Assembly: GCF_000003815.2 (NCBI RefSeq)
Contig: NC_049990.1
Span: 3,771,830-3,835,829 of the forward strand
DNA from: Branchiostoma floridae
Lineage: Eukaryota; Chordata; Leptocardii; Amphioxiformes; Branchiostomatidae
DNA length: 64,000 nt
Direction of reading: 5' to 3'
Position 1 is the first letter of the stretch. Each line of letters begins with the position of its first letter. A program made the position numbers and the translations under genes. Shown here piece after piece: positions 23,150 through 64,000 of this stretch. The notes beneath the pieces were generated by a model, which was not told the origin of the DNA, did no database searches, and saw only the letters and a program-made list of their open reading frames with translations.

Positions 23150-23255
23150 TTAAGCTGTCCCTGGTGCTGAATAACATTTACACTCACGCTGCTGTTTGAA
23201 TGAAATGTACACTGTTATCCCTGGTGCTGAATGACATTCACACTAACACTGCCGC
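23150..23255. repeat. Left flank of a minisatellite split by a transposon
   Basis: Units around CCCTGGTGCTGAATGACATT with CACACTAACACTGCC are present here and resume at 25060. The intervening 1.8 kb is the inserted element. Confidence 0.75.
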
Positions 23256-25038
23256 TTAAGCCCCGGTCACAAAGCGCGTACGATTCCTTGCGATGGACTA
23301 TTCCGCATATCGTACGATGAGCGCAGTACATCGCAAGAAAATCGTAAGCATCGCAAGCCATCGCAACGCATCGGATGGTGTTCAAAATTTTTCCAGCGTC
23401 GCACGATTTTTCACTTGTGTCTCTTCTGTATAGCCGTCTGACCGCTTTTGTGCTTCTTTAACCAACAAACATGTGGACGTAGCTGTTAAATACCTTCCTA
23501 TAATATCTTTAACTGTAAAAATAAATTAAAAAAGACCATGACAACAAGAGTATTACAAGCAAAAGTTCAAATCAAGCGTGAGTACTGGTATGGTTATCTC
23601 GGCCTGCTTGCCGGCTCTACGTGTCAGGCTCTTTCGAAGATCGTATCATGATATGCTATCAACAAAAAGATGCCATCATACAAAAATCAAATGATAAGCA
23701 TTATATCATATATATTTCCGACTCATAGAGCCTGCCTTTATGTTCGAGTTGTCCCCATGGTTATTACGATTATGGTAAACTGACCCAAGACCGACGAGAG
23801 CTGAGATTTGATCTAATTATAAACTCACGTGCATGAAGCGATCAAACAATTGTCTGCATCACCTGTGCGTGACGCGCTGTTCTCTGGTTGCGACTGTGGC
23901 AGTTGCGACTGATATATTTCCCCTTTTCGTCAATATCGACAATATCAGGTAAAACTGAAACCATCACAACATACTAAAAAATCATAAATCTATAACCTCA
24001 TCAGTAGACAAAAATTGCCGTAATGAACTCTGCTATGGGGGCAAATAAAACCTTACGACGATAGCGAAATTTTGAACATGTTCAAAATCCATTTCAGCTC
24101 TATTTTTCGCCATACGACGCTCCCCGATTTACTATGATCCACTGCGATTGGCGCAGGCACGCTCTTATGACCTCATCGTACGATGCACTACGCGCTTTGT
24201 GACCACGGCTTTATATACTTAAACCATTGCTTCCGATTTTCTTCCGACTTACGTCGCACTGCGCTTATCCTGCGCATCGGAAGGAATCGCAAGGAATCGT
24301 ACGCGCTTTGTGACCGGGGCTTTACCGGCTCTACGTGTCAGGCACTTTCGAAGATCGTATCATGATATGCTATCAACAAAAAGATGCCATCATACAAAAA
24401 TCAATTGATAAGCATTATATCATATATATTTCCGAATCATAGAGCCTGCCTTTATGTTCGAGTTGTCCCCATGGTTATTACGATTATGGTAAACTGACCC
24501 AAGACCGACGAGAGCTGAGATTTGATCTAATTATAAACTCACGTGCATGAAGCGATCAAACAATTGTCTGCATCACCTGTGCGTGCCGCGCTGTTCTCTG
24601 GTTGCGACTGTGGCAGTTGCGACTGATATATTTCCCCTTTTCGTCAATATCGACAATATCAGGGAAAACTGAAACCATCACAACATGCTAAAAAATCATA
24701 AATCTATAACCTCATCAGTAGACAAAAACTGCCGTAATGAACTCTGCTATGGGGGCAAATAAAATCTTACGACGATAGCGAAATTTTGAACATGTTCAAA
24801 ATCCATTTCAGCTCTATTTTTCGCCATACGACGCTCCCCGATTTACTATGATTCACTGCGATTGACACAGGCACGCTCTTATGACCTCATCGTACGATCC
24901 ACTACGCGCTTTGTGACCACGGCTTTATATACTTAAACCATTGCTTCCGATTTTCTTCCGACTTACGTCGCACTGCGATTATCCTGCGCATCGGAAGGAA
25001 TCGCAAGGAATCGTACGCGCTTTGTGACCGGGGCTTAA
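23256..25038. mobile_element. TTAA-flanked non-autonomous DNA transposon, tandem dimer
   Basis: The outer ends are TTAA|GCCCCGGTCACAAAGCGCG and CGCGCTTTGTGACCGGGGC|TTAA. They give inverted termini of about 33 bases (continuing into TACGATTCCTTGCGAT) and a TTAA target duplication as in piggyBac- or Kolobok-type elements. A complete copy spans 23260 to about 24320. From 23611 the internal sequence repeats as 24325-25037 (period about 714) with very few differences, so the second copy lacks the left end. A third, subterminal end-like motif (ACGCGCTTTGTGACCACGGC) lies near 24190 and 24904. No transposase reading frame exists. Confidence 0.85.
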
Positions 25039-25054
25039 ATGACAATTTACAATA

Positions 25055-25614
25055 ACACTGCAATCCCTGTCCCTGGTGCTGAATGACCCTCACACAGACA
25101 CTGCCTTCCCTGTCCCTGGTGCTGAATGATATTCACAATGACACTGCTGTCCCTGTCCCTGAATGACATTCACACAGACGCAGCCATCCCTGACCCTGGT
25201 GCTGAATGACATTCACACTGACACCGCCATCCCTGTCCCTGAATGACATTTACACTGACACTACCATCCTTGTCCCTGGTGCTGAATGACATTCACACTG
25301 ACACCACCATCCCTGTCTTCATGGTACTGAATGACATTCACACTGACACTGCTGTCCCTGTCCCTGGTGCTGAATGACATTCACAATGACACTCCTGTCC
25401 CTGGTGCTGAATGACATTCACACTAACACTACCATCCCTGACCCTCATGCTGAATGACACTCACACTGACACTGCCATCCCTTCCCGTGGATCTGAATGA
25501 CATTCACACAGACGCAGCCATCCCTGTCCCTGTTGCTGAATGATATTCACACTGACACTACCATCCCTGTCCCTGGTGCTGAATGACATTCACACTGACA
25601 CTGCCATCCCCGTC
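25055..25614. repeat. Minisatellite, unit about 43 bp (CCCTGGTGCTGAATGACATT)
   Basis: About a dozen units read TGTCCCTGGTGCTGAATGAC then ATTCACACTGACACTGCCAT, some lacking the GGTGCTG part. The array runs straight into an assembly gap. The reverse complement of the same unit forms the array at 31303-31860. Confidence 0.9.
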
Positions 25615-26772: not shown

Positions 26773-29700
26773 ATGGAAAGGACAATTGTCGACATGGCGG
26801 ACGGGCCGCAGCTCACCCGCTCCCAGAGCATGGAAGGTAACTAGTATGTTTTTGCAAAATTCTGTAACATGTTTACGTTTTGTGCTAGCGAAACGGACAG
26901 GATTCTTTGCTGCCGTGGTTATCGCGGTATGACATTAGTACGTCGGTTCATATGGTGGCTGGAATGGTGATTGGCGTCACCACGCATCACGTCATAAATA
27001 CACAAGTCTGGTCGGATGGTTTTCCTAGAAGTGAGAATCAATAATTCAACTTTACAGGGACCAAAAACATTTTCCTGGAATTCAGAATCAATATAACTAT
27101 TCCGAAGACAAACATGTCAAGGTTTGTCGTGATTTTTCATAGCCTATTGTTACCCGTTCTGTACAGCTTTTATAATCTGAATACTCCAAAATTCCACATG
27201 TCCAGCAAAACCACATTAAACGTAGCAAAGCTGAATCTGGACCAGACTGTGCAAAGTTATCTCTGCTGCTATTTCCTTCTTCAAGATTTTAAAGTTGGAA
27301 TATTGTTACTTGACAACTTGTCTTTTTTCGGCACCGGTGCACCACCTCCCAATGGCGACCACTGATGATTATATCGTATTCTGTGAGCGCTTGTTGTTGT
27401 GTTACACTGAATTTATCCAACAGAAGCTCTCTAAGATTTAACATTTCTCAGAATCGACTTTTGGGTCGTGATGAATTTGTAAATGTTCCGCAGGTAACTC
27501 TCCCATGCAAACCGACTGGGTGGCAGTTGCGGACGCCGCTGCGAACATACCCAACGCGATGTACGTCTCCAGTGCAGGTAGATCATTTTCAAATCAAGAT
27601 TATAGTATTCCTGTTGCTGTCGCCTGTTTTGTTCTGTTTTGTAGTTGCCGCGTCCGTCTAAAGATTGCTTTCCAGCCTTGATATGTGATTTTACGTATTT
27701 AAACCTGTCCTTTAAACGTTAGTTCGATACTCGCCATGCCCCTGCCCCCATGACGGTGGAGTGACGCCCACCGACCCTCAAGGCCGGCTAATCTGTCTTA
27801 AGGTGCCAAAAACACATACGGACTTGGTGATGCAAGTGTGTCAACATCTGCACACTTGCTACTAAGACCCGTGAATTGTTTTCTGTTGGCAATAAGAATA
27901 AAGACAAAGTAGAAAACGTTCGAAATTGATTTCAATTTGAATCTTGATTTGAATCATCACGGCATCATGAAATACTTCATGTAGTCAGAAATGACTCAGA
28001 CGCGGACACTTTTTTTTTTTTGCCTGAACAGCCACCAACGCCATGGATCCGGACAAGACCAAATCTTTCCGCCTGGACAACAAGCTTTGGCACATCACCG
28101 GCCTTGTGTTTGCCGTGGTTATCGTCATACTGCTGTCATTTTTTGCAGGTGAGCTTCTTCCCACGTGTATTGAAGAATAATCTAATCCCCAAGCAGATCC
28201 TACGGTAGCATAAGATAGTATCAAAAGATGGCAGCGGAGTGAAACAAGTCTAGGAATGTGTATGGAGGCGGCGAACCTCCTCTGGCCGGCTATACTCCGG
28301 ATCCATATCCGGTTTTGGTACTATCTTATATGCCACTGGGAATCTGCTTGGAGATTAGAATGATCATCGTAATGTTTAGAATAGCCTGTTGACATTCGCT
28401 CTACATTTCACACCAACAGTGTTTGTTGTTCTTTCGAAATCTCCTTGTACACATTTGTACAAAGGTGCAGTGCATCTTTCAATGTTAGTTTTCAGATTGT
28501 TCATATTTCATTACCTTTTGAATACACGCAGTGGGTGATTTACCTCTCCTGTTTATTGATAAGGGAAGCAGACATCGTCAAGTCTTCATGTGTTTCACTA
28601 TCTATATTGTGGGTAGCCTGGGTTTACACAAGCTCTCGCTGGCTGGAGTAAAGCTATTGTAGGGCCCGCCGCTAGGGGCGCGATTTTAGTCAGGCTATAT
28701 TGTGTGGGATTGTTTCTGAACCTGGTCTTATTTACTTTCATGTCTAGTTAACGTTACTACTCTAACTGAGGAGGTGAGGGAGCTTCGAGCATGGAAAGCG
28801 GAGATTCAGCTGCGAGTTATCGAGATGGAACGTAAGCATGACATCCGCATATCACCAAACTGTATTCTGTGATATTTAAGAAATATTTTCCTTAAAATCA
28901 TTAAAACTTTCCAATGCTTCTCACATCTTACCGACCAACAAAAAACAATCTTCTTGCTTGAGTCCTCCAACCCCTTTATCTATGAAAATGTTTGACAATT
29001 CATCTCCCACTGCATACGGTAAAAAAGTCAAACCCATCATACAACTTATAAGTAGAAGTAGATTTAGAATAGATGTTATTTCCCGTTCATTTGTAAATAT
29101 CAAGTTCCTTCTTTGTTGAGTATACAATTATGTATACCACACTGTTTGCAATTAGCCTTCGGGCATGAGCTTGCAATAAAGATTATTATTATTATCTAAT
29201 CATGAAGCAGTCTGCTTTATAGCTATGTGCCTATGGAGAGTGACTTCTGACTCCTATGTATAACACTATAGGAAAAGTAACAGAAATACTAAATAGTGTT
29301 TAAACTAACACTGACAGACATTGTCCCTGTCTCCGGTGCACATGGACTGCCACATGCTTGTATATGCATATGTATATGTAAATGTATATGTATGGTACAT
29401 AGACTACCCCATGCATAAAAATGCAATAAACAGTTGTCAGTAGAATAATGACCTATTCAAACATTTGAGTGGCTTTTTTTTTTCAAAAATGCTGACATAG
29501 CATATCTTACGCCAAAAAGCAATTAAAAAAGCAACTGGATATCATTTTGGAAACAGTCAAAAACGTTTCAGGTAGAATCCACAGTAGAGTCACTGGTAAA
29601 AGGTAGTTGCTTGAGTAATTGCAATTTGTTGTACCTTATTACCTGGATATCTAATCTTCTGTAACAGTGGGGGGTTCAAGTAGTGCTAACTGACTATGCC

Positions 29701-32700
29701 AAACGCCTGTCAGGCTTTTGGGTCGATCGGTTACGCTGCTAGTGTTGTGATCTGTCAGGATGTTTGTATATATTGTTTCTTTCTGTTCTACTCGCCCCTC
29801 TTGCTGTTTCATTGGCGCCCGACGAGGACGAATCTTGAAAACAAAAGGGGGAGTAGTGTAACAGTGGGGGGTTCAAGTAGTGCTAACTGACCATGCCAAA
29901 CGCCTGTCAGGCTTTTGGGTCAATCGGTTACGCTGCTAGTGTTGTGATCTGCCCCCTCTTGTTGTTTCATTGGCGCCCGACGTGGCCCTGGTGGATAACA
30001 GGCCGGAGATGTGCCTGCCCACAGGGATCGAACTCGGAGATTCGAGGACGAATCTTGAAAACAAAAGGGGGAGTAGTGTAACAGTGGGGGGGTTCAAGTA
30101 GTGCTAACTGACCATGCCAAACGCCTGTAGGGCTTTTGGGTCGATCGGTTACGCTGCTAGTGTTGTGATCTGTCAGGATGTTTGTATATATTGTTTCTTT
30201 CTGTTACACTCGCCCCCTCTTCTTGTTTCATTGGCGCCCGACGTGGCCCTGGTGGATAACAGGCCGGAGATGTGCCTGCCCACAGGGATCGAACTCGGAA
30301 ACTCGAGGACGAATCCTAAAAACAAAAGGGGGAGTAGTGTAACAGTGGGGGGTTCAAGTAGTGCTAACTGACCATGCCAAACGCCTGTAGGGCTTTTGGG
30401 TCGATCGGTTACGCTGCTAGTGTTGTGATCTGTCAGGATGTTTGTATATATTGTTTATTTATGTTCCACTTGCCCCCTCTTCTTGTTTCATTGGCGCCCG
30501 ACGTGGCCCTGGTGGATAACAGACTGGAGATGTGCCTGCCCACAGGGATCGAACTCGGAGATTCGAGGACGAATCTTGAAAACAAAAGGGGGAGTAGTGT
30601 AACAGTGGGGGGGGGGGGGTTCAAGTAGTGCTAACTGACCATGCCAAACGCCTGTAAGGCTTTTGGGTCGATCGGTTACGCTGCTAGTGTTGTGATCTGT
30701 CAGGATGTTTGTATGTATTGTTTCTTTCTGTTCTACTCGCCCCCTCCTGTGTTTCACTTCATCGACGTATATCATATTTCAGGCACGTGTGACCTGTCTA
30801 GCCAATCTGGCCGTGCAGGCCCTCTCGGGCCACCCGGACCTCCGGGAGAGATGGGGCCACCAGGGCCGGCTGGCTCTGTGTCCGTCGGGCCACCAGGGCC
30901 TCAGGGGCCGATGGGACCCGCTGGGCCGCCCGGTCCACCAGGGCCGGGGACGAACGAGTGCTCAAAACCTGGGACAAATACTCGACCATCCGTGGAGTGC
31001 GAGTCCAATACAAGTAAGGCATTATCATTCTGTCATACGATTCTATACACTATTTTGACTATCAAAATTAAGTTTGCATTTCTCTTATGCAATGTACTTT
31101 ATTTGCATTGTTTACAACGCACCATTTATAGTGAAAGAAATGTCTTCCTCGATATATGCGCGTGTTACATACTGGTGACCGCATAGTGCGTTTACCTAAG
31201 ATNNNNNNNNNNNNNNNNNNNNNNNNNNNNNNNNNNNNNNNNNNNNNNNNNNNNNNNNNNNNNNNNNNNNNNNNNNNNNNNNNNNNNNNNNNNNNNNNNN
31301 NNCATGGCAGGGTACAGTGTCAGTGTCATCAGGGACAGGGATGACAATGTCGGTGTGAATGTCGTTCAGCACCAGGGATAGGGATGGCAGGGTCGGTGTG
31401 AATGTCATTCAGCACCAGGGACAGGGACAGCAGCGTCAGTGTGGATGTCATTCAGCACCAGGGACGGGGATGGCCGTGTTAGTGTGAATGTCATTCAGCA
31501 CCAGGGACAGGGATGGCAATGTCAGTGTGAATGTAATTCCAGCACCAGGGACAGGGATGACAGTGTCAGTGTCATTCAGCACCAGGGACAGGGATGGCAG
31601 GGTCGGTGTGAATGTCATTCAGCACCAGGGACGGGGATGGCAGCGTCAGTGTGGATGTCATTCAGCACCAGGGGCAGGGATGACAGTGTTAGTGTGAATG
31701 TCATTCAGCACCAGGGACGGGGATTGCAGTGTAAGTGTGAATGTCATTCAGCACCAGGGTTAGGGATGGCAGTGTCGGTGTGCATGTCATTCAACACCAG
31801 GGACGGGGGTGTCAATATCAGTGTGTCATTTAACAGGGACAGGGATGCTAGTGATCGCGTGAATGTTACTTAACACTTAATACAGGTTTTTTCATTCCAG
31901 CAACTTGCCCCAAAGATTACGAAAAGTGGCGTGGAATTTGCTTCAAGGCGTTCAACATACGTGCAACCTTCAACGAAGCGGTCGACTTATGTCGTAAAGA
32001 CGGCGGCACCCTCGCCATGCCCCGAGACGCCGAGACCAACGCCTACCTGACTACGATACACGAAGCCATGGCCGTCTACTCCGGATTCTGGATCGGCCTG
32101 TCCGATCAACATGAAGAGGGGGTCTTCAAGTGGGTGTGTAATGTTTGTTCGTTCGGACCCCTAACTAAAACAACATGAGCTAATTGACTCATTTGCATTA
32201 GCTGTGTCTTAGCCTTGCCTTCCTTTGAAATCCAAAATTGTCTTCAGCTTGACTTTGACTTGTCTTTGTTCTCTTTGGAATCGAAATGGTATTAAGTCTG
32301 AAATTCTCTTACAACGTTTCCGATTGTACATCTGAAATTGTCTTCATTCATAGCTAGAGTATAAAAGACCTGTTTCTTCTAGATCACGTCAGTGTCACTG
32401 ATGAAAACTGGTGGATTCCAGTTGAAACGTCTAGCCGTTTCCAAAACCATATCCAGTTGCTTGAGTAACTGCTTTTTGGTATATCTTATTACCTGGATAT
32501 CTAACCTTCATCGACGTACCTTGTAGTGCCTTGTGGTACATTGGGCAGCAAGTTCCCTTGCTGTTCCAGGAGCAGGGTATATTTCTACGGAGGGTTTTGT
32601 CAAGCTCTTTAACGTACGGAACTTCCATTTCAGATCCCTTCTGAAAGCTTAAGACGGGTGTAGCCCAATTAACCAAAACGTCCTTCCCAGCAACTGTCCT

Positions 32701-60700: not shown

Positions 60701-63700
60701 CGACGAGAGGTAGACCTCCAGTTAGAAGCTCTGAGGAAGATGTCTGACAGACATCGAAACGTCAGCTGATGATAAAAACTGATTGTGTACAAGAAAACTA
60801 TTATGTCCTATGATCTACTAACCTGATAAAATTGTTTTCGGATAACTTATTCATGTTTTTGACTGTCCAGCTCCAGATTTTTGTCAACGAATGAATATCA
60901 GGACAATCGATATTTCTTTATGAGAAGTTATTAAGGTGTGTAGAATCCACTGACGCAGCCCACTGTCTCTCTTGAGCTATTTGAAACTTGAAACTTTATT
61001 TTCCAATCAACTTTGCAGCCCTGACAACAAGGGCTGAATTGCATTGATTTTACCTAAGACAGCACTACAGTGATCATCATTACATGCACTTTCACAACAA
61101 AATTGAGATAAAATCGGCATAGAGCAATCAATATAAAATTTTAAATATATTTACATAAACATTTATATCGATACACAGGCAGCATTTTGGGCCAGAGTTC
61201 GTGGTACGAAGGACATCTTGTGTCTGTTTGATTTACTAAGTGGTATTGTCAGTTCTACATTGCGTTTCGGGTTATAGCGATCATTGCGATCATTGCTTCA
61301 TCATTCGTAGGCCTCTGGCGCTGTCCGTTGTCGACAAAAAGATCGTAGGATCTTTTGTCACTTAGTATCAATATCTTCTTTATAATTCCTTACTTTCCCA
61401 AGTTGAGTACGGATGATTTCTGTCCATTAGGAGAAGCTGGACTACGAGGCTGTCAACGACCTGCCTTACCTGGACATGTGTATCAGCGAGACCCTGAGGA
61501 TGTACCCTGCCGCACAGAGGTAGGCTTTTTTTTATTGCAACATTAATACAATACAAAAACATAGTGGTGCCCCTACTCGAGCACACAGTCTTATATTAAA
61601 GACACCACTAGACAAAATAACCACACAACATAGGACAAAAAAGATGAAACGGGTACGCTTTAGGCCTGGGTAGGCTTTATTAGGCAAGGAATGTAAGATT
61701 AGTGTTGTTTTTTTTTACCATTAGGCCATGTTGCTTTGATTATATGAATGGCATCCGCGCACGCATGAATGAATGAATGAATGAATGAATGAATGAATGT
61801 ATGAATGTATGAATGTATGAATGAATGAATGAATGAATAAATGAATGAATAAATGAATGACCTTAATTGTACTTTTGTGCTTAAACAAGCTAAGTACAGG
61901 TCGTAGCGCTAGTGATAATATTGTGTGTGTTCAGTCATCTGTTCAACCTTCCTGGCCAACTTTCACAATGAAGGTAACTTTTTTTTAGTCAAACGATTTT
62001 TGATACGCACGCTCGCGTCAATTTTTGGGTTTCCAGAGGATTTCATCCATATAATTAGATCAACATAGCCTAAATTGTAGATTCTAAAACGTGGCAAATT
62101 GGTCTTGTTTAGTGTTGGACTGAGAATCCAAAGATTCTGGGTTCGGATCCCTGACGTTCTGACGGCACTTTACGCCTAGTTCCTCACGCTGCTGCAAAGT
62201 CTTTAGAACGGGACGTTACGCTGTTGACTATTTTTTGTTGCATTTGTCGAAAAGCGGAATTTTCCTTTACAGCAAACCTGTAACTACTGTATTCATATAC
62301 CCCATTTTGAATTGTAACGGATGTAGGTTACCCCGCGGATAAAGGTGAACTAGGCAAAGCAGTCCTAGATTGATGGCCTCACGTTAATCTGTTTTGTCGT
62401 CAGGTTTGACCGCATTTGCAAGGAGGATACGGAGGTGAAGGGTCTACACATCCCGGCCGGCATGATCGTGAATATTCCCGTCTATGCGATCCACTATGAC
62501 GCAGAACTCTGGCCCGAACCCGAGAAGTTCAAACCTGAGAGGTCTGTTATTTTCATTTTTTTTCGACCTTTACTCAACCTTGATACATCTGTGAATATTT
62601 TCATCAGAATAAAGATACTCTTTTTACGCAAGCATTGGACCGCATCTGAACTGTGAGCAGCGACACCTGTCCTGCAGTACAATGTGAACCAGTTATAATT
62701 GCTCTGAAGAAGGTGACAGACGGTCACCGAAACGTTGGTGAGAATAAAGCAGTAATGGTTGTGTAAAAAGAGTCTCTTTATTCAACCTTGATACATCTTT
62801 GGCCTAAGTCGTTTTCAAGACTTCGATGAAGTCAATGATCTTTCTTTGTTAAAAGTAAACAGAGCAATTCACAATTCAATATTCGATACTCATGTTCAAA
62901 ATAGTCAACATGATATCAGTCCATCTTCTCAAAATCAGTCTATAGTTACATACTATTAGTTTCTCGTCGCGCCATATTCCGAAAACTTCAAAAAGTGACG
63001 ACGGGAGGCTCACTTGTAAGAATCGAAATTTGTTTGGGGTGGTGTGTATCCACGCTAGCGCAGTAAACGTGACGTCTACAGTTGGTCAAAAGTTCATAAC
63101 CTCTGCCGTCTCTTAAGGGCGTCTCGAAGAAAGTTAGGATGATATCATCAGTGTCAAGTACAAAATTTGTTCGGGGTGGTGTGTATCCACGCTAGCGCAG
63201 TAAACGTGACGTCTACAGTTGGTCAAAAGTTCATAACCTCTGCCGTCTCTTAAGGGCGTCTCGAAGAAAGTTAGGATGATATCATCAGTGTCAAGTACAA
63301 AATTTGTTCGGGGTGGTGTGTATCCACGCTAGCGCAGTAAACGTGACGTCTACAGTTGGTCAAAAGTTCATAACCTCTGCCGTCTCTTAAGGGCGTCTCG
63401 AAGAAAGTTAGGATGATATCATCAGTGTCAAGTACAAAATTTGTTCGGGGTGGTGTGTATCCACGCTAGCGCAGTAAACGTGACGTCTACAGTTGGTCAA
63501 AAGTTCATAACCTCTGCCGTCTCTTAAGGGCGTCTCGAAGAAAGTTAGGATGATATCATCAGTGTCAAGTACAAAATTTGTTCGGGGTGGTGTGTATCCA
63601 CGCTAGCGCAGTAAACGTGACGTCTACAGTTGGTCAAAAGTTCATAACCTCTGCCGTCTCTTAAGGGCGTCTCGAAGAAAGTTAGGATGATATCATCAGT

Positions 63701-64000
63701 GTCAAGTACAAAAGTCTGGCCGTTGCAAAGTCATATACAGTTGCTTGAGTAACTGCTATTTGGCGTATGTTTATTACCTAAATGTCTAACTTTCATTGCC
63801 GTATCAAGCAGAGTAAAGTGACAAAGGTATTTTTGTTCCAGGTTCACCAAGGAGGAGAAGGAGTCACGTGACCCGTACGCCTACCTCCCGTTCGGCTCCG
63901 GACCCAGGAACTGTGTGGGCATGCGCCTCGCTCAACTGGAGCTCAAGTTTGCTCTGGCCAAAATGCTGCAGAAGTTTCGTTTCGTTACCTGCGACAAGAC
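51766..64000 (+). CDS. CYP3-clan cytochrome P450, 3' partial
   Basis: Thirteen exons: 51766-51833, 54144-54237, 54550-54602, 56022-56118, 57222-57338, 57787-57875, 58451-58599, 58984-59114, 59539-59598, 60276-60461, 61431-61519, 62404-62541 and 63842-64000 (continues). Together they encode about 476 aa; CYP3A proteins are about 500 aa, so only about 25-30 residues are missing. Motifs: an N-terminal signal anchor (about 8-25) and [11 protein letters not shown]; helix C WKRVR (125-129); I-helix AGYETT (311-316, A/G-G-x-E-T-T); ExxR in ETLR (368-371); PERF (422-425); heme loop [10 protein letters not shown] (441-450, Cys448 as ligand). All key residues are intact, so it should be an active ER monooxygenase. 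CYP3A-like features include [23 protein letters not shown] and [14 protein letters not shown]. Most junctions are canonical. The acceptor at 60275 lies in a TTA microsatellite and has a poor pyrimidine tract. Introns are full of short elements. Confidence 0.93.
52614..52716. mobile_element. 85-bp MITE with 22-bp TIRs and 9-bp target duplication
   Basis: The element spans 52623-52707: left TAGCCTGGGTACCATACGTA, right the inverse ending GGTACCCAGGCTA (one or two mismatches). It is bracketed by AAATATTCG at 52614-52622 and 52708-52716. A 9-bp duplication is typical of Mutator-type elements. It lies in P450 intron 1. Confidence 0.85.
53290..53763. repeat. Interstitial telomere-like tract (CCCTAA)n with variants
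   Basis: A run of perfect CCCTAA hexamers (about 53350-53440) gives way to CCCCAG, CCCTAG and mixed CCCTAC/CCCCAA units, then to a gap. The minus strand reads TTAGGG, the metazoan telomere repeat. It is inside P450 intron 1, not at a chromosome end. Translated frames across it are low-complexity artefacts. Confidence 0.92.
53764..53863. other. Assembly gap (100 N)
   Basis: Follows the telomere-like tract in P450 intron 1. Confidence 0.99.
54920..55742. mobile_element. TIR element with TAA target duplication (about 817 bp)
   Basis: The element 54923-55739 begins TACCCGCCTCACATTATA and ends TAATGTGAGGCGGGTA, flanked by TAA on both sides (54920-54922, 55740-55742). A 3-bp TWA duplication is typical of PIF/Harbinger-type elements. 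The interior is rich in CGATC/GATCG motifs and has no transposase frame. It lies in P450 intron 3. Confidence 0.82.
56212..56491. mobile_element. Foldback element with GAAACGTCC arms
   Basis: The left arm about 56212-56288 (CAATTCAATCTCTACAACTG ... GGACGTTTCGAGTGACATCC) and the right arm about 56414-56491 (GGATGTCACTCGAAACGTCC ...) are inverted around about 125 bp. It lies in P450 intron 4. Confidence 0.8.
56640..56790 (-). mobile_element. Possible tRNA-type SINE on the minus strand
   Basis: The minus strand shows a B box GGGTTCGAATCAC (plus strand GTGATTCGAACCCGGTACC) with an upstream GTGACGTGACTGCAAGGTA. Fragmentary. Confidence 0.45.
57466..57690. repeat. CCAA / CAAA microsatellite
   Basis: Compound (CCAACCAA)n then (CAAA)n simple repeat in P450 intron 5. 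Long open frames here (both strands) are repeat artefacts. Confidence 0.9.
59626..59904. mobile_element. Second TAA-type TIR element, containing an assembly gap
   Basis: The left end TGCCCGGTCACATGTAGCGA and its continuation AAATCGATCGGA are mirrored by TCCGATCGATTTTCGCTACA ... GGGGGGTA. TAA flanks at 59623-59625 and 59905-59907. Its right end (TTAGAGCTC ... CTCCGATCGA) also resembles that of the element at 54923-55739, so both belong to related groups. It lies in P450 intron 9, 27 bp after the donor. Confidence 0.78.
59719..59818. other. Assembly gap (100 N)
   Basis: Lies inside the small TIR element of P450 intron 9. Confidence 0.99.
59990..60265. repeat. TTATG / TATTA microsatellite ending at a P450 splice acceptor
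   Basis: (TGTTATGT)n then (TATTATAT)n with TTGTA variants. It ends about 10 bp before the exon at 60276. The acceptor context is A-rich (AATAAAAAG) instead of a pyrimidine tract. Confidence 0.85.
60558..60782. mobile_element. Complete foldback element (GCTGACGTTT ... AAACGTCAGC)
   Basis: The left arm (CCTGCTGACGTTTTCTTG, CTCAGAGCTTCTAACTGGAG, GGAGTTCTGCCTCTCGCCGC) and the right arm (GGCGACGAGAGGTAGACCTC, CCAGTTAGAAGCTCTGAGGA, CATCGAAACGTCAGCTGATG) are inverted over about 100 bp. Half-copies lie at 21590 and 44370. It lies in P450 intron 10. Confidence 0.8.
61770..61905 (-). mobile_element. (GAAT)n tail and short retroelement end, minus strand
   Basis: A GAATGAATGAATGAATG run is followed by ACCTTAATTGTACTTTTGTG and AAGTACAGGTCGTAGC. 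This resembles the 33300 element (tail of TTCA repeats when read on the minus strand). It lies in P450 intron 11. Confidence 0.5.
62100..62225 (+). mobile_element. SINE-like fragment with B box
   Basis: GATTCTGGGTTCGGATCCCT is a B-box-like motif. CGGCACTTTACGCCTAGTTC follows, a diverged version of the SINE core seen at 14420. It lies in P450 intron 11. Confidence 0.5.
63029..63713. repeat. 137-bp tandem repeat, five near-identical copies
   Basis: GGTGTGTATCCACGCTAGCG recurs at 63041, 63178, 63315 and at the same spacing twice more (period 137). Each unit also contains CAGTAAACGTGACGTCTACA and GGATGATATCATCAGTGTCA. Copies 2-5 look identical by eye; copy 1 starts with a few differences. The array ends about 130 bp before the heme-loop exon of the P450. 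Confidence 0.95.
63724..63800. mobile_element. Fragment of the CAGTTGCTTGAGTAACTG family
   Basis: ACAGTTGCTTGAGTAACTGC then TTACCTAAATGTCTAACTTT matches 32455-32510. It directly follows the 137-bp array and precedes the last P450 exon by about 40 bp. Confidence 0.6.

Follow-up and report, generated by a model that had tools for sequence, protein, structure and literature searches.

In the window analysed here, a stretch of 64,000 nucleotides (nt) of the lancelet Branchiostoma floridae (contig NC_049990.1, positions 3,771,830 to 3,835,829), positions 29660-30756 hold a tandem array of a terminal-repeat retrotransposon in miniature (TRIM). The array arose from one TRIM insertion, as is supported by the single target-site duplication around it and by an empty sister site nearby. 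The best explanation for the whole, which we regard as probable, runs as follows. A non-autonomous TRIM with long terminal repeats (LTRs) of about 154 bp, an internal region of about 107 bp and no genes would have been reverse transcribed with tRNA-Lys(CUU) as primer, using proteins that a gypsy-type element may have supplied. It would have integrated a single time, creating the 4-bp duplication CTTC, after box B of an RNA polymerase III (Pol III) type promoter had already been lost in the landed copy or its immediate parent. Recombination in place would then have turned this copy into an array.

The array alternates five LTRs with four internal regions, all on the forward strand: LTR1 (29660-29811, 152 bp), LTR2 (29857-29969, 113 bp, with a 40-bp internal deletion), LTR3 (30077-30230, 154 bp), LTR4 (30338-30490, 153 bp) and LTR5 (30598-30756, 159 bp, with an expanded G run), separated by internal regions of 45, 107, 107 and 107 bp (29812-29856, 29970-30076, 30231-30337 and 30491-30597). 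A previous reading of the letters alone (the sequence-only reading) had reported this composition, and its coordinates and lengths are confirmed. All five LTRs run from TG to CA. The four internal regions each start with T and TGGCGCCCGACG, followed in three of them by TGG, and end with AAAAGGGGGAG and TAG. The primer-binding site (PBS) TGGCGCCCGACGTGG, complementary to tRNA-Lys(CUU) with one mismatch, is found at 29971-29985 and again at 30232-30246 and 30492-30506; the polypurine tract (PPT) AAAAGGGGGAG is found at 30063-30073 and also at 29843-29853, 30324-30334 and 30584-30594. The order noticed earlier, with the PBS one base after an LTR and the PPT before the next, is seen throughout the array. 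Ahead of the PPT stands a hairpin with the loop AGGA (GATTCG-AGGA-CGAATC, 30039-30054 and 30560-30575), of which the stem is mismatched at 30300-30315. Internal region 1 keeps the T, the first 12 nt of the PBS and the PPT; its middle 62 bp are gone, the hairpin included. No gene is present in the interior, where the longest region measures 107 bp. The array thus has at least two short TG...CA LTRs, a PBS beside the 5' LTR and a PPT beside the 3' LTR, as a TRIM should, and the alternation of LTRs and internal regions within a single duplication makes it a tandemly arrayed TRIM.

The CTTC duplication stands at 29656-29659 and 30757-30760 (forward strand), just as the sequence-only reading had it, and occurs as a single copy at the empty sister site. 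Once the flanks of the array are joined with one CTTC, they align across the junction with a sister copy of the host repeat at 32455-32518 (forward strand; 89% over 64 nt), which bears out the uninterrupted site claimed before, and with a further copy at 63739-63804 (79% over 66 nt). It might be argued that a single or double unit was expanded by mis-assembly, given the N runs in the assembly, for example within the related loci L022, L024 and L038 and at 31203-31302 of the window. Against this, every array LTR has private substitutions or deletions (3-9 substitutions between any pair), and six other loci with at least three LTR copies were read. Given these differences among the array LTRs, and given further arrays that have duplications of their own, we regard an assembly artefact as unlikely; of all explanations considered it is the one to which we give the least credence.

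The window copy is a member of a family. A DNA search of the genome (513 Mb, 431 contigs) with the first 441 bp of the array gave 109 matches (40 of 753 candidates scored), and two family patterns occurred at 33 and 354 sites against none for the reversed-pattern controls, so that the array is not a chance repeat. We read 48 places: the array, 39 other places from the search and eight chosen among 100 listed of the 354 sites with PPT and LTR. Seven places hold at least three LTR copies (L009, L013, L024, L029, L048, L052 and L054); sorted by hand, the remaining ones comprise 20 two-LTR elements, four solo LTRs and 17 truncated or complex places, with L031 and L038 being a single locus counted twice (flanks 94-97% alike). 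An internal region stands between all adjacent LTRs in L013, L054 and the window array, and in L009, L024, L029 and L052 some LTR copies or internal regions are incomplete or absent. The genome search recommended by the sequence-only reading yields solo LTRs and two-LTR elements.

Boundaries in the family follow the same rule as in the window. Among the 27 multi-LTR loci of which both outer ends can be placed (a count that leaves out the 17 truncated or complex places), 24 show exact 4-bp target duplications at these ends, against agreement in 7 of 930 mismatched flank pairings. The coincidence of TG...CA ends with a duplication, on which the proposal of one insertion turned array had been staked, is found at these 24 loci. 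The outer ends of L009 and L024 are altered (TA and TT replacing CA and TG) and were set by hand. One duplication encloses the whole locus in six of the seven loci with at least three LTRs (L009, L013, L024, L048, L052 and L054). No 4-bp target duplication is present at the placed outer ends of L029 and L033. L023 was scored as lacking a duplication: a remnant, TGTAACAG-TAG, precedes its first LTR, and outside this remnant CACC matches the other side. One of the four solo LTRs has a duplication, 5 bp long. In 8 of the 17 loci with two full LTRs the pair is identical, so the family has moved recently.

A few further observations were made in these places. L051-L054 form a related TRIM subfamily with a similar 3' end, a tRNA-like LTR and the primer site TGGTTCCCA, which we take to be tRNA-Glu-like. 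L011 (C3:1662 kb) is a TRIM with the duplication GGAT and seemingly lies inside a gypsy gag-like stretch (gag judged by eye). The flanks of L028, L032 and L034 contain palindromes that match Rfam mir-4875 and mir-2574 on both strands, under the curated score; perhaps these are inverted-repeat transposons.

One point had escaped the sequence-only reading: the LTRs of the relatives bear a tRNA-derived sequence of Pol III type that is missing from the window array. We collected 56 LTRs (at least 140 nt, TG and CA ends, no N; LTR2 of the window was kept as an exception, and L024_2 is cut at its 5' end) and aligned them in 46 distinct rows. Relatives hold a T-arm-like stretch CCCGGGTTCGATTCCCGGG, and by eye many rows have a box-A-like TGGCTCAG or TGGCTCGA upstream of it. 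The exact Pol III box B GGTTCGANNCC occurs in 33 of the 51 LTRs outside the window (21 of 31 loci), where shuffled LTRs would give 0.0005 per LTR, and in none of the five LTRs of the array. The alignment places the loss of about 28 nt of T-arm and box B at a junction that in LTR3 falls between 30171 and 30172, and the gap is plain in LTR1, LTR3, LTR4 and LTR5. Rfam gives matches to a transfer-messenger RNA family of the tRNA clan on the sense strand of the element in 13 of 40 loci. By this anatomy the family is of the Helenus/TRIMp3 type, which has tRNA-derived sequence with a box B in the LTR, and the window array is a promoter-damaged derivative of it; we infer that the relatives are transcribed by Pol III.

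Some results count against this part of our explanation. The deletion of LTR2 itself starts beside the box-B gap, so that LTR2 is only consistent with that gap. The tRNA-clan matches reach 15-19 bits with a gathering score of 47, and none falls in the window. Run on the LTRs, ARAGORN calls no tRNA; the single tRNA-Lys that it reports is the L031 insert described below.

With respect to growth, the sequence-only reading had allowed for a single insertion multiplied later as well as for a multimer integrated as such. We weigh the two unequally and consider recombination in place quite likely, because the LTR tree is partly nested and because L029 repeats a unit without a primer site. The alignment of the five LTRs, suggested earlier as a guide to the order of amplification, does give a partial order. 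Measured against seven outgroup LTRs, derived changes are common to LTR3, LTR4 and LTR5, and more of them to LTR3 and LTR4; in the tree LTR3 and LTR4 (support 100/98) nest within LTR3-5 (99/94), LTR1 and LTR2 being left unplaced. In L013 the three LTRs fall in one clade (99/96). L029 consists of three 148-bp units, each without the PBS and without the 3' part of the LTR, and is therefore hard to explain via reverse transcription. For tapeworm TRIMs, too, unequal crossing-over has been put forward (PMC4558846), and work on tandem LTR elements of plants considers both routes (PMC11899658).

Under the rival route, tandem transcripts or concatenated complementary DNA (cDNA) would have been reverse transcribed into a ready-made multimer and inserted in one step. 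This would account for the one duplication around each of the six multi-LTR loci, and multi-unit transcripts and concatenated cDNA have been proposed for Cassandra (PMC7215508). In addition, LTR1 and LTR5 diverge no more than several inner pairs do, which fits a one-step multimer too and speaks against our preference. A multimer does not readily explain the changes common to LTR3-5 and to LTR3-4, nor the triplication in L029 of a unit that lacks the PBS, and we consider it improbable.

A third possibility is that at least two independent TRIM insertions recombined, in which case the array LTRs would be of different origin. Such pairings occur in the family: L025 and L032 have intact 4-bp duplications, yet their two LTRs belong to different clades or subfamilies (89.8% and 93.4% identity), which suggests recombination or conversion between copies. 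Moreover, the tree groups the five array LTRs at 45/0, and of 200 bootstrap trees 50% trace them to a single origin (the bootstrap had not settled); with this weak support the tree leaves room for a mixed origin of LTR1 and LTR2. Opposed to this are the box-B gap common to the array LTRs (LTR2 with the reservation above), a substitution shared by four of the five and absent from the seven outgroup LTRs (LTR2 is deleted there), and the one CTTC pair that encloses the array. Our own explanation is further favoured by the identity of the array LTRs to one another, which is 92.9-96.8% when a gap counts as one difference, whereas none of the 51 outside LTRs exceeds 91.6% identity to them (without gaps 94.1-97.4% against at most 93.4%). 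We regard independent insertions as very improbable and return to growth in place from one insertion as the reading that we follow.

The primer, for which the sequence-only reading had named tRNA-Lys, is recorded in the relatives. Three independent TRIM loci have kept primer cDNA, located either between the LTR and the PBS or directly behind the LTR (tRNA positions were counted by hand on the standard cloverleaf). In L031 (C245:43739) the LTR leads into a complement of tRNA-Lys(CUU) that extends from the CCA to about nt 8, after which come ACAT and the element's own PBS; in its twin L038 (C1:19.87M) the tRNA stretch reads N. L021 (C7:7650099) is an independent insertion (duplication GACA) with a copy from the CCA to about nt 26, followed by TTCAT and the PBS. 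Its two PBS copies differ: the first has the base of the tRNA (CCCAACG), the second the base common in the family (CCCGACG). L082 (C19:7815252) retains a tRNA-Lys(CUU) copy to about nt 1, with part of the upstream LTR reading N. A genome-wide search for the complement of the tRNA 3' end (CCA plus 22 nt, at most two mismatches) finds CCA-bearing copies in L021 and L031 only, the pattern missing L082 and the N-masked L038; two further matches on C150 have no CCA and are presumably tRNA genes.

The CCA-bearing copies are cDNA of the mature tRNA, so that tRNA-Lys primes the family. An ordinary insertion of a tRNA gene was considered and rejected, since the copies bear CCA and are placed exactly between LTR and PBS. 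Plus-strand synthesis normally halts at 1-methyladenosine 58 (m1A58) of the primer tRNA, and a retrovirus review states that read-through to the tRNA 5' end cannot serve strand transfer (PMC13191261). The retained copies suggest that such read-through products, unfit for strand transfer according to that review, can still integrate. Beyond the retained tRNA, copying restarts a few nt inside the LTR end, which would fit a polymerase that jumped from one end to the other, or a joining of ends. Copies of this kind reveal the primer directly, where it is usually inferred from the primer-binding site.

A second lead concerns the element that mobilises the family. The only recognisable features in the 107-bp interior are the PBS, the AGGA hairpin and the PPT. 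We examined the 3' stretches of 20 gypsy copies, all of them following a match to the integrase zinc-finger family, and found a perfect 6-bp hairpin with an AGGA loop just before the PPT in two of them, which is not to be read as a rate, as the PPT could not be located in many of the 20. These are L065 (GACACG-AGGA-CGTGTC, 434-449) and L060 (CACTTC-AGGA-GAAGTG, 740-755), each lying on the reverse strand of its locus. The hairpin of the TRIM occupies the same place with a different stem. Mononucleotide shuffles of the 20 stretches would give 0.03 such hairpins; the AGGA loop was chosen from the TRIM and L065, so that L060 is the sole unprompted match. Both gypsy copies have TGTAA...TTACA LTRs and 4-bp duplications (GTAC and CTAC), and their LTR pairs are identical across the 234 and 172 nt compared. 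Because hairpin and PPT are laid out in the TRIM as in autonomous gypsy elements, the hairpin is a candidate cis signal, for packaging or for plus-strand priming, recognised in trans. The mobilising element probably comes from this group of gypsy elements with an AGGA hairpin. The shared hairpin offers a testable candidate for how an element without genes borrows its machinery.

A further result that counts against our explanation is that the searches turned up no autonomous element sharing both PBS and LTR with the family. A search for the integrase zinc-finger family, in which 150 of 174 candidates were scored, returned 128 matches. By eye, none lies within about 20 kb of the 100 listed of the 354 PPT and LTR sites; one match, at C3:1659768, is near L011. 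L081 (C18:13270562-13270839) has a tRNA-Lys-like PBS and a TGTAAC...CTTACA LTR, and was rejected as partner because the following 6.7 kb contain no long frame. Matches to its LTR form at least four pairs that span about 1.7-1.8 kb end to end (e.g. C15:678074-679872), and L081 and its relatives are probably another non-autonomous LTR family of about 1.8 kb, not the partner. The 3' part of the TRIM interior may be the end of a gypsy pol frame.

Taken together, these observations invite a joint proposal that we put forward as possible, if short of probable. The TRIM family would record errors of reverse transcription: in three insertions the plus strand would have copied tRNA-Lys past m1A58, reaching about nt 26, nt 8 and nt 1, and at least two of the products would have been fused end to end to the PBS end of the element itself before they integrated. 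The hairpin would be a candidate cis signal recognised in trans, and arrays could form from copies without a box B.

Comparison with known systems shows where the array stands. Helenus/TRIMp3 elements are TRIMs whose LTRs include a tRNA-like sequence and which in animals have 4-bp duplications (PMC10886601, Kojima 2024). The lancelet family resembles them in being short and non-autonomous, in its tRNA-derived box B in the LTR (box A by eye) and in its PBS and PPT, and Helenus likewise has tRNA-Lys among its primers and tandem LTR-11_DR arrays. It differs in that the window copy lacks box B and that relatives keep primer-tRNA cDNA, and the likeness drawn here is one of anatomy. Branchiostoma, amphioxus and lancelet go unmentioned in the main text of PMC10886601, so that the lancelet is added here to the animals with tRNA-promoter TRIMs; in addition, the window supplies an example of a copy without box B that turned into an array.

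Plant tandem TRIMs (PMC4717578) and Cassandra (PMC7215508) show the same alternation of LTRs and internal regions, including the form with five LTRs and four internal regions. They are unlike the present array in host (here an animal), in primer (here tRNA-Lys), in the gypsy-like ends found here and in that Cassandra carries a 5S-like sequence where the lancelet family has a tRNA-like one. biv-TRIM of bivalves (PMC6934838) and ta-TRIM of taeniid tapeworms (PMC4558846) are likewise TRIMs of animals that occur both as solo LTRs and in tandem; in E. multilocularis the duplications of ta-TRIM are mostly 4 bp long, and lennie is a candidate for its helper element. Unlike the lancelet family, neither has a tRNA-like LTR sequence in the main lines of its published description, and the primer site of ta-TRIM is for tRNA-Leu. 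The autonomous-type gypsy copies of the same genome, located near C5:6870.7 kb and near C3:11010 kb, are similar in their TGTAA...TTACA LTRs, their 4-bp duplications and the AGGA hairpin followed by the PPT before the 3' LTR; their LTR bodies are different and so are their primer sites (C followed by TGGTGTCAGAGG, T followed by TGGTGGCAGCAG).

Two claims of the sequence-only reading have to be toned down in this light. The rarity of tandem TRIM arrays in animals was overstated: clams have arrays of up to 58 terminal repeats (PMC6934838), and tandem arrays are described in tapeworms (PMC4558846) and in LTR-11_DR of zebrafish (PMC10886601). The unit of about 415 bp is indeed small, though not extreme, as Helenus elements span 311-1263 bp (PMC10886601) and the smallest plant TRIM measures 233 bp (PMC4717578). 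No description of a lancelet TRIM was found in the literature searched, which was limited mostly to the main text of articles in non-subscription journals. With tandem TRIMs on record from plants, clams, tapeworms and zebrafish, we consider the novelty moderate; the retained primer-tRNA copies and the common AGGA hairpin deserve the most attention.

The remaining observations concern the window itself. We place the array, by inference, in an intron of a C-type lectin gene, because a TTTCAG acceptor stands 26 nt past LTR5: the putative acceptor AG (30781-30782) ends 26 nt beyond the array, and gene and array share one strand. Translations of two downstream exons, when joined, match Lectin_C (E 3.2e-22), and a collagen-like downstream exon scores 26.7 bits, just below the Pfam cut-off of 27.2. 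Within 30716-30782, a pyrimidine-rich stretch of LTR5 reaches to within 26 nt of the putative acceptor of the lectin exon, and may serve as its splice signal or disturb it.

All five array LTRs also contain a hairpin region (30096-30162 in LTR3, forward strand). Folding of the whole LTR gives a z of -2.67 (4 of 200 shuffles are equally stable), and covariation in 36 distinct rows is modest: double changes occur in 6 of 24 pairs (shuffle mean 3.0, equalled in 3 of 500), at a score of 0.120 against 0.093 (0 of 500). The hairpin is broken in the LTRs of some relatives (L035), and no conclusion depends on it. Downstream of the array, the N run at 31203-31302 is followed by a 43-bp minisatellite at about 31330-31825, of which an inverted copy lies near 23155-25614. 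Finally, ARAGORN calls a tRNA-Leu (gag) at 62085-62163, and the Rfam tRNA model stays below its gathering score throughout the window.

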